Assembly: GCA_002839675.1 (NCBI GenBank)
Contig: PGYM01000001.1
Coordinates: 424,683-488,682 of the forward strand
Direction: 5' to 3'
DNA: 64,000 nt
Source: Methanomicrobiales archaeon HGW-Methanomicrobiales-1
Lineage (GTDB): Archaea > Halobacteriota > Methanomicrobia > Methanomicrobiales > Methanospirillaceae
Position numbers and translations under genes: made by a program. The first letter of the stretch is position 1. Every line of letters begins with the position of its first letter. The notes beneath the pieces were generated by a model. It did no database searches. It had not been told where the DNA came from and saw nothing but the letters and a program-made list of their open reading frames with translations. Below are positions 55,855-62,396 of this stretch, in pieces.

Positions 55855-55868
55855 GGAAGGAATATTCC
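55855..55868. promoter_or_regulatory. NrpR-type nitrogen operator
   Basis: The site reads GGAA-GGAATA-TTCC, an exact GGAA-N6-TTCC. In Methanococcus maripaludis NrpR represses nif and glnA through such GGAA-N6-TTCC operators. Here it lies 10 nt upstream of the TATA-like 55878-55887, where a bound repressor would hinder TBP/TFB. Identity as NrpR operator is inferred from the match; no NrpR gene is in the window. Confidence 0.7.
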
Positions 55869-55877
55869 TACTAGCAC

Positions 55878-55887
55878 ATATATATGT
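55878..55887 (+). promoter_or_regulatory. TATA box of the nif operon
   Basis: atatatatgt is the strongest TATA-like run upstream of the cluster. It is placed between the operator and the ATG at 55930, giving a leader of about 20-25 nt that includes AAGGAGGT at 55918-55925 as ribosome binding site. Confidence 0.6.
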
Positions 55888-55929
55888 ATGCAGAGTTAAC
55901 ATTTCTGTGTAATACTAAAAGGAGGTACC

Positions 55930-56265
55930 ATGCAACAGGTCACAATCCATAGTCCGGGTAAAATCAGATCTTCACAATCTCCACGGAAGCTGACAACTGC
56001 ACCTGCTACGCAACGAATGCGTATCAAGTCGAAAAATTTTGACCGAAAGGAGAAATCCACCTGCTTATCCCTGGGCGGAAAGATCAAGGCAACGGTGTTT
56101 GAAATTACGCACGTTGATTCTGTTGATCCCGAACCGGGATTTGGGTATGGCTGGTCCTGTAAATGTAAGGGTCTACTCATGAAGGACAACGGTATCATGG
56201 ACATCGTCAAAAGCGCAACAAGCGATGACGATAGATCCGGGGGTTTCCTCTGCTCATGCAACTGA
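55930..56265 (+). CDS. Uncharacterised protein, first gene of the nif operon
   Basis: 111 residues with a very strong ribosome binding site (AAGGAGGTACC before ATG 55930). The first 40 residues are basic and Ser/Thr/Gln-rich, probably disordered. The rest contains CLSLGGKIKATVFEI, a Gly/Trp-rich WSCKCKG (Cys94 and Cys96) and ends FLCSCN (two more Cys), with an acidic patch SDDDRSGG between. The two CxC pairs are plausible metal ligands. I do not recognise the family. The operator and TATA lie directly upstream and nifH starts 86 nt downstream in the same direction, so it is the first gene of the operon. It could be a regulator, a metal handler or a protein that helps nitrogenase. Confidence 0.7.
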   Translation: MQQVTIHSPGKIRSSQSPRKLTTAPATQRMRIKSKNFDRKEKSTCLSLGGKIKATVFEITHVDSVDPEPGFGYGWSCKCKGLLMKDNGIMDIVKSATSDDDRSGGFLCSCN

Positions 56266-56315
56266 TGCAATAAAAATCAGGAATTGAACGAGCGGGAACA
56301 ATTAAAAAAAACTGA

Positions 56316-57179
<864 letters not shown>

Positions 57180-61016: not shown

Positions 61017-62396
61017 ATGGATACCAGCTCAGTTACCGCCGAAGGGGCGGCATGTATCAGCGAACGCCAGAACTCCATTATGACCACGGGGAAAAGCAAA
61101 AGCAGCATCCACTGCGCTGACGACAGCCTTGCCGGCTCCGTCAGCCAGCGGGCCTGCGTGTTCTGCGGGGCCCGGGTGGTCTTAAACCCGGTCACCGATG
61201 CAGCTCATCTCATCCACGGCCCCATCGGCTGTGCCACCTATACGTGGGACATCCGGGGGAGCCTCTCAAGCGGTTCCGAGATGTACCGGAACAGTTTTTC
61301 CACCGACATGAAAGAGCGGGACGTGGTCTTTGGCGGGGAGAAGAAACTTGCAACCTGCATTGACGAGGTCGTAAACAAGTACCACCCGCCGGCAATGTTC
61401 GTGTATTCGACCTGCGTTTCAGGTATGATTGGCGACGACATCATCGCGGTCTGCAAAGCAGCTTCCAACCTGCATGCAATCGATATTATCCCGGTTGAGT
61501 CCAGCGGTTTTCTCTCCGGCAACAAAGTTGTCGGGTACCGGGCAGCAGCCGTTGCCCTGATGCAGCTGATCAAGCCCAAAGAGGGAGTGACGGTAGAAAA
61601 AACAAAGAAACTCAATTACCTTGGCGAGTACAATCTCGGCGGAGAAAAATGGGTAGTTGAGCGCTACCTACAAGAGATTGGCATTGAGATCAATGTCGCG
61701 TTCACCGGGGATTCAACCGTTGCCGCCCTCAAACAGGCGCCGGGTGCCTGCCTGAACCTGGTGCAGTGCACCGGTTCCATGCACTGGGTGGCGATGAACC
61801 TCGAACAGGAGTTTGGCACCCCCTATATGGATGTAAACTTCTTTGGTGCCGATAACACGGCAGAAAGCCTGCGGAAGATTGCTCAGTTCTACGGGGATGC
61901 AGAGATGATACGTCGCACCGAAGTGCTCATCGAACGCGAGCAGCTGCGTATTCGGCCGATCCTTGAGAAATACCGGAAAAAACTGACCGGCAAACGGGCT
62001 GCGATTTACGTAGGCGGGGCTTTCAAGGCCGTCGCGATTATTCGCCAGCTCCGTGAACTGGGAGTAGAGATCGTACTTACCGGTACCCAGACCGGGAAAA
62101 AAGAGGAGTACGATAACCTGAGCACCCTGCTCGATCCCGGAACGATTATCATTGACGATGCAAATCCGGCAGAACTGGAAAAATTCCTGCTCGAAAAGAA
62201 TGTCGATGTGATGGCCGGTGGCGTCAAGGAACGTGCCCTTGCCTACAAACTGGGCATCGGGTTTGTTGACCACAACCATGACCGGAAAGATGGGCTCGCC
62301 GGCTTTGACGGGGCGGTCAGGTTTGCCCGCGAGGTCTTTGTGACTACGTGTTCGCCGGTCTGGAGCCAGTTAAAAGCAACCGGCAGGAGGGTATGA
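61017..62396 (+). CDS. nifE: Nitrogenase cofactor scaffold protein NifE
   Basis: 459 residues, homologous to NifD. It pairs with NifN to take up the NifB product and assemble FeMo-co. Conserved Cys are in RACVFCGARVVLNPVTDAAHLIHGPIGCATY and VYSTCVSGMIGDDI; NLVQCTGSMHW aligns with the cofactor-binding Cys of NifD. The start is ATG 61017; the end overlaps nifN by 4 nt if its first ATG is used. nifB is not visible in this window. Confidence 0.95.
   Translation: MDTSSVTAEGAACISERQNSIMTTGKSKSSIHCADDSLAGSVSQRACVFCGARVVLNPVTDAAHLIHGPIGCATYTWDIRGSLSSGSEMYRNSFSTDMKERDVVFGGEKKLATCIDEVVNKYHPPAMFVYSTCVSGMIGDDIIAVCKAASNLHAIDIIPVESSGFLSGNKVVGYRAAAVALMQLIKPKEGVTVEKTKKLNYLGEYNLGGEKWVVERYLQEIGIEINVAFTGDSTVAALKQAPGACLNLVQCTGSMHWVAMNLEQEFGTPYMDVNFFGADNTAESLRKIAQFYGDAEMIRRTEVLIEREQLRIRPILEKYRKKLTGKRAAIYVGGAFKAVAIIRQLRELGVEIVLTGTQTGKKEEYDNLSTLLDPGTIIIDDANPAELEKFLLEKNVDVMAGGVKERALAYKLGIGFVDHNHDRKDGLAGFDGAVRFAREVFVTTCSPVWSQLKATGRRV

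Follow-up and report, generated by a model that had tools for sequence, protein, structure and literature searches.

The window analysed here is a stretch of 64,000 nucleotides from Methanomicrobiales archaeon HGW-Methanomicrobiales-1, whose genome measures 2.47 Mb and whose nearest named relatives are Methanoregula. The nif operon in this window starts with a promoter region and an open reading frame (ORF) of 111 codons, followed on the same strand, after a gap of 86 nt, by nifH (Table 1). A preliminary description made from the sequence had listed an operator, a TATA box, a ribosome binding site, an ATG and nifH 86 nt downstream, and the coordinates confirmed all of them. That description had also named a terminator and a separate promoter between the ORF and nifH as grounds for rejecting its reading; the gap contains neither, and no terminator-like run of T or second operator is present in it. 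An antisense ORF of 124 codons (55896-56270, minus strand) overlies the leader ORF and was taken as a by-product.

Table 1. Coordinates in the window of the nif leader, its RNA core and nifH.
Feature	Position	Strand	Remarks
NrpR-type operator GGAAGGAATATTCC	55855..55868	+	same place in 14 Methanoregula leaders
TATA-like box, AT-rich, CATATATATG	55877..55886	+	about 10 nt after the operator; relatives have CATATAAATA or AATATAAATA
Leader ribosome binding site AGGAGGT	55920..55926	+	kept in relatives
Leader ORF, 111 codons	55930..56265	+	ATG at 55930, stop codon ends at 56265
Structured RNA core	56059..56155	+	matched by covariance models R1 and R2; overlaps the central part of the ORF
Outer helix P1, 5′ strand GCTTA	56063..56067	+	pairs with 56142-56146
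Core block 1 GGGCGGAAAGATCAA	56073..56087	+	NifH codons around LLLHGM
Core block 2 TTGATCCCGAACCGGGA	56123..56139	+	NifH codons GGPEPGVG
Outer helix P1, 3′ strand TGGGT	56142..56146	+	pairs with 56063-56067
nifH ribosome binding site GGAGGC	56338..56343	+	not sequestered by the core in predicted folds
nifH	56352..57179	+	first intact operon gene, source of the leader copy; ATG at 56352

The motif GGAA-N6-TTCC alone occurs at chance level, with 2 matches in the 64-kb window against 2.08 expected; the second one (61288-61301) lies within the nifE reading frame. The operator upstream of the leader is nevertheless credible because of its conserved place and the NrpR domains of the genome: it occupies one and the same place ahead of the TATA box in each of the 14 Methanoregula nif leaders, being exact in 9 and having one end base changed in 5, and the NrpR domain PF01995 is encoded at two separate loci of the host genome (L200 and L201). 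The leader is thus probably under the control of an NrpR-type operator, and the earlier claim that it is the first feature of a nif operon so regulated was upheld. In six other leaders (L061, L062, L063, L066, L067 and L123) a GTTGATACTA-like box, absent from the window, is located ~30-55 nt upstream of the operator and might bind an activator such as NrpA.

We then considered the leader ORF as a protein. A ribosome binding site and a start codon precede it at all 14 complete Methanoregula nifH loci, and four clear relatives of the ORF (46-50% identity) lie each directly before nifH; examination of gene neighbours, a check proposed in the preliminary description, placed relatives nowhere else than before nifH. 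None turned up when named genomes were scanned plainly with the protein sequence. Neither the frame nor the length of the ORF is conserved across species. Two phases relative to the RNA core occur among the 14 Methanoregula: eight ORFs read through it, with 92-111 codons, while six stop early, after 50-51 codons, at a shared TGA inside the core, and in some other genera of the family the ORF is down to 8-13 codons. The dN/dS ratio of the leader ORF ranges between 0.2 and 0.9, mostly 0.5-0.6, compared to about 0.04 (at most 0.06) for nifH. Substitutions are spread over the codon positions, and divergence is nearly free over most of the leader; only the closest relatives of the window, in one subclade, show in-frame indels and a mild excess at third positions. 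The CKC and CSC pairs of the window ORF are absent from its relatives. Searches of Pfam and NCBIfam returned no family, sub-threshold matches to ADP-ribosyltransferase, YbaB and others being regarded as chance, so the earlier statement that the product belongs to no recognised family holds. Single-sequence AlphaFold prediction yielded no confident fold (mean pLDDT of 43), which by itself is weak evidence. Overall, it is plausible that the leader is translated but not that it encodes a conserved protein.

Comparison with NifH accounts for the origin of the leader. Over its first 50-60 residues the ORF aligns to NifH without gaps, and after a gap of 21 residues the alignment resumes at GGPEPGVG. 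In codon terms, the ORF corresponds to NifH codons 1-50 in register, then lacks about 21 codons, and continues with codons about 87-97; the remainder is unrelated to NifH. The P-loop has been destroyed (GKGGIGKST to SPGKIRSSQ). In a fixed-register test, in which sequences were aligned to NifH from the start codon and 14,054 ORF starts served as background, the window ORF scored 47 against a background of -28 ± 12.9 (48 residues), ~5.8 SD above it. Leaders of two other families (f2 and f4) scored 55-62, near 6.5-7 SD. Leaders from other families are in fact clearer decayed nifH copies than that of the window: MRQTTVCENEGMEKSATTRNVTAAI, MTREIASNGKDGCRKS, MRQTTVCENEGMEKSATTRNVTAAIPTPGRR and MRQTAINCTERTGKPTTTRNVTAAIS are more readable as such, and MRQTKIYEKCGAGKS, MRQTKIYEKCGAGKSIW and MRQHELYGQCGTGRP, which come from outside the order, are nifH-like as well (MTREIASNGKDGCRKS and MRQHELYGQCGTGRP were read from the leader DNA and translated by eye). 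The most decayed leaders (G033, G011 and G025) give no NifH signal by themselves, and hence their origin rests on homology to the other leaders. Independent support came from R2, a model built from 24 leader sequences only: its off-target matches, which are weak, fall mostly in nifH-family genes at LLLGG...GGPEPGVG, the codons predicted by a nifH origin. Judged from these alignments, the simplest history would be a tandem duplication of nifH followed by decay of the promoter-proximal copy.

Two segments of the leader are nearly invariant at the nucleotide level whatever the frame. Their family consensus sequences are GGCGGANNGAY and RUCCYGAACC, with a spacing of 55 to 115 nt, and together they can be drawn as a structured core comprising an outer helix, a GG/CC pairing, a CGG/CCG helix with an AA bulge on the 3′ side, a 5′ bulge of three nt (ANN), a GAY/RUC helix and a variable apical arm. 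In the window, the paired strands of block 1 are CGG (56076-56078) and GATCAA (56082-56087), with the 3-nt bulge AAA between them; TTGATC and CCG of block 2 pair with these strands, AA is bulged and CC pairs with GG. Inspection by eye did not support two known motifs: the core has no GA pairs, as a K-turn would, and it presents a 3-bp instead of a 4-bp helix between unequal bulges, which does not fit a bulge-helix-bulge.

Several lines of evidence indicate that this core is maintained as RNA. The blocks are invariant in every codon phase and across genera, former third codon positions included, whereas in the matching nifH codons of the same genomes third positions vary freely, the commonest base reaching mostly 30-74%. 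In the core alignment (A3), which was fitted to the model, 96% of the structure cells are paired, compared to at most 52% when the partners were slid. Both sides have changed in 17 cells, a value reached by none of 500 shuffles; pairs with a double change are no more numerous than in the shuffles. Both outer and inner helices covary, and helix flanks swapped among clade representatives pair less well (permutation P = 0.004). Since many core pairs never vary, the covariation comes from few positions and few independent events, and the genomes compared are partly metagenome-assembled. In genus g25, four genomes carry a quite different outer helix that is again complementary (CTGCTT/AAGCAG in three of them). 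This genus contains two leader types, one in L121/L169, L127, L129 and L165 and the other in L105, L107 and L108, that differ in their outer helices and in the letters of P3 (CCG versus CUG). The core is part of the leader's own minimum-energy fold in 20 of 24 cases, versus 7.5% when the blocks were kept and their surroundings shuffled. Folding energies are only moderately better than those of shuffles (z from +0.1 to -3.7), and in a longer context the core dominates in only 13-16 of 22 leaders, with longer-range folds competing. Taken together, these comparisons suggest that selection keeps the nucleotide sequence and its pairing, and not the protein. Both the nifH origin and the RNA structure are, computationally, well supported.

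We next examined the distribution of the core. A covariance model located it upstream of nifH in all 24 nifH-bearing genomes of the family, with one copy per genome, always joined to nifH. When the model was built from the 14 Methanoregula leaders, it identified the element, always before nifH, in nine genomes of three further genera outside the model, the weakest two of which were found only by direct search of their nifH loci. A search with R2 against 384 genomes of the phylum revealed no further leaders. Matches lacking a nifH context (G057, G168, G216 and G016), as well as GC-rich bacterial pattern matches, were attributed to chance at the numbers searched. Rfam gave no match at the gathering score and only unrelated weak matches at E values up to 10, and we found no description of such a leader in the open-access literature.

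These results are best explained, with a probability that we put at roughly two in three, by a decayed tandem 5′ copy of nifH that became the nif leader and part of which was recruited as a structured cis-acting RNA. The leader between the NrpR-controlled promoter and nifH would originally have been a tandem duplicate of nifH's 5′ part. This duplicate would have retained the promoter, the ribosome binding site and the start codon, whereas its P-loop and 3′ part were lost and its protein decayed. Two old coding pieces, near LLLGG and GGPEPGVG, may then have become, in the Methanoregula family, the two strands of a conserved RNA. The core is presumably co-transcribed with nifH and, we infer, regulates its expression. 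Its location, downstream of the NrpR promoter and within the nif transcript, points to post-transcriptional action in cis: the RNA would most likely act on the nif operon transcript once NrpR permits transcription, either as the binding partner of a protein or small molecule or through protection or processing of the mRNA. We found no expression platform, there being no T-run terminator and the accessibility of the nifH ribosome binding site being independent of the core in predicted folds, which thus do not support sequestration of this site; protein binding, mRNA stability or processing are therefore at least as likely as a classical riboswitch. Leader-peptide attenuation was also looked at and was not supported. 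That the core represents a novel class of cis-regulatory RNA in archaea that controls nitrogenase, may sense a ligand and derives from a duplicated coding piece of the very gene it regulates, is a more tentative proposal, which we consider rather less than an even bet.

A narrower form of this explanation would be a metabolite riboswitch responding to glutamine, 2-oxoglutarate, molybdenum or similar. The compact and highly conserved core, its invariant bulges and its location in the 5′ leader of one operon fit such an element, which we nevertheless consider unlikely, given that it shows no expression platform, is tied to a single gene and bears no similarity to the riboswitches in Rfam. Less likely again is that translation of the leader ORF is itself functional, through coupling, transcript protection or attenuation of nifH, the peptide sequence being irrelevant. 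Almost all leaders keep the ribosome binding site and the start codon despite their differing peptides, and in one distant genome the ORF stops 1 nt before the nifH ATG; however, the ORF may end anywhere between a point upstream of the core and about 85 nt before nifH, and the invariant core would be left unexplained. Processing of the leader into a trans-acting small RNA is an improbable alternative, although a nitrogen-type promoter lies directly upstream and a comparable role is fulfilled in Methanosarcina mazei by sRNA154, which stabilises nif mRNAs (PMC9765008). Against it, no terminator and no separate promoter precede nifH, and the single copy in each genome is always joined to this gene.

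The remaining alternatives appear very improbable. If the leader were a functionless decaying nifH pseudogene and the blocks its slow remnants, the clear nifH origin and the nearly free divergence of most of the leader at all codon positions would follow, but not the invariance of the block letters across genera at former third codon positions, nor the dependence of folding on block surroundings that covary. Still less credible is that the ORF encodes a genuine small protein belonging to the nif operon. The preliminary description had proposed a Cys-containing product with a metal-handling or regulatory role, and the strong, conserved ribosome binding site and start codon, together with the in-frame indels and mild third-position excess in the closest species, are in its favour. 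This proposal did not survive the comparison: frame (differing in 6 of 14), length and Cys pairs are not conserved, dN/dS is 0.5-0.6 versus 0.04, there is no domain or confident fold, and the sequence derives from NifH with its P-loop lost. Finally, the two conserved blocks in a transcribed region might serve a second regulator as binding sites on the DNA, in the way of the second nif operator of M. maripaludis, whose nif has two operators (title of a reference in PMC2723118). We regard this as the least probable reading, because the blocks lack GGAA-N6-TTCC, their spacing varies from 55 to 115 nt and the helices around them covary.

Known regulators of archaeal nitrogen fixation are NrpR and NrpA, acting at transcription, and NifI, acting post-translationally. 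If the decayed nifH copy does harbour a cis-acting RNA, the leader would add a layer of control between these two levels, present in every nitrogen-fixing member checked of a widespread methanogen family. It would also offer an unusually clear record of the passage from a protein-coding fragment to a regulatory RNA, with intermediate stages readable in other families. The leader shares with nifH the start context, the LLLGG and GGPEPGVG segments and, in register, codons 1-50; unlike nifH, it has lost the P-loop and, in the window, about 21 codons, its frame is broken in many species, and it is conserved as RNA and not as protein. NrpR and its operator GGAAN6TTCC are established at the nif operon of M. 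maripaludis (PMC2723118). The same consensus lies next to the nif promoter here and the NrpR domain is also encoded in the host genome; unlike in M. maripaludis, a leader of some 380-640 nt separates operator and nifH in the Methanoregula family. Structured 5′ leader RNAs and riboswitch candidates such as the glnA RNA (PMC2864571) likewise have a conserved core in the leader of a nitrogen operon. In contrast to that type, the present core is archaeal, has no Rfam similarity and no known ligand or expression platform, and derives from the coding sequence of the very gene that follows it. In the survey of 104 structured RNAs, nif does not feature (PMC2864571). sRNA154 (PMC9765008) resembles the leader in being a methanogen RNA under nitrogen control with a link to nif expression, but it is a separate trans-acting RNA, whereas the present core is joined to nifH in one leader. 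By its conservation and position the core thus looks like an RNA element, not described before, that would control nitrogen fixation.

The arrangement upstream of nifH differs at several other loci. In family f5 and part of f2 (L122, L124, L130, L125 and L131) nifH follows the operator at about 76-79 nt and a leader is absent. In L180 (G257), from outside the order, a short decayed nifH-start ORF is placed 115 nt before nifH and its stop codon ends 1 nt before the nifH start codon, a spacing that suggests translational coupling. In the Methanoregula-like L177 (G006:C25, about 420-1160), the leader joins nifH at codon 124, so that the first 123 nifH codons are missing, and nifD is split into two overlapping frames; this locus may represent either a decayed nif operon or assembly errors.
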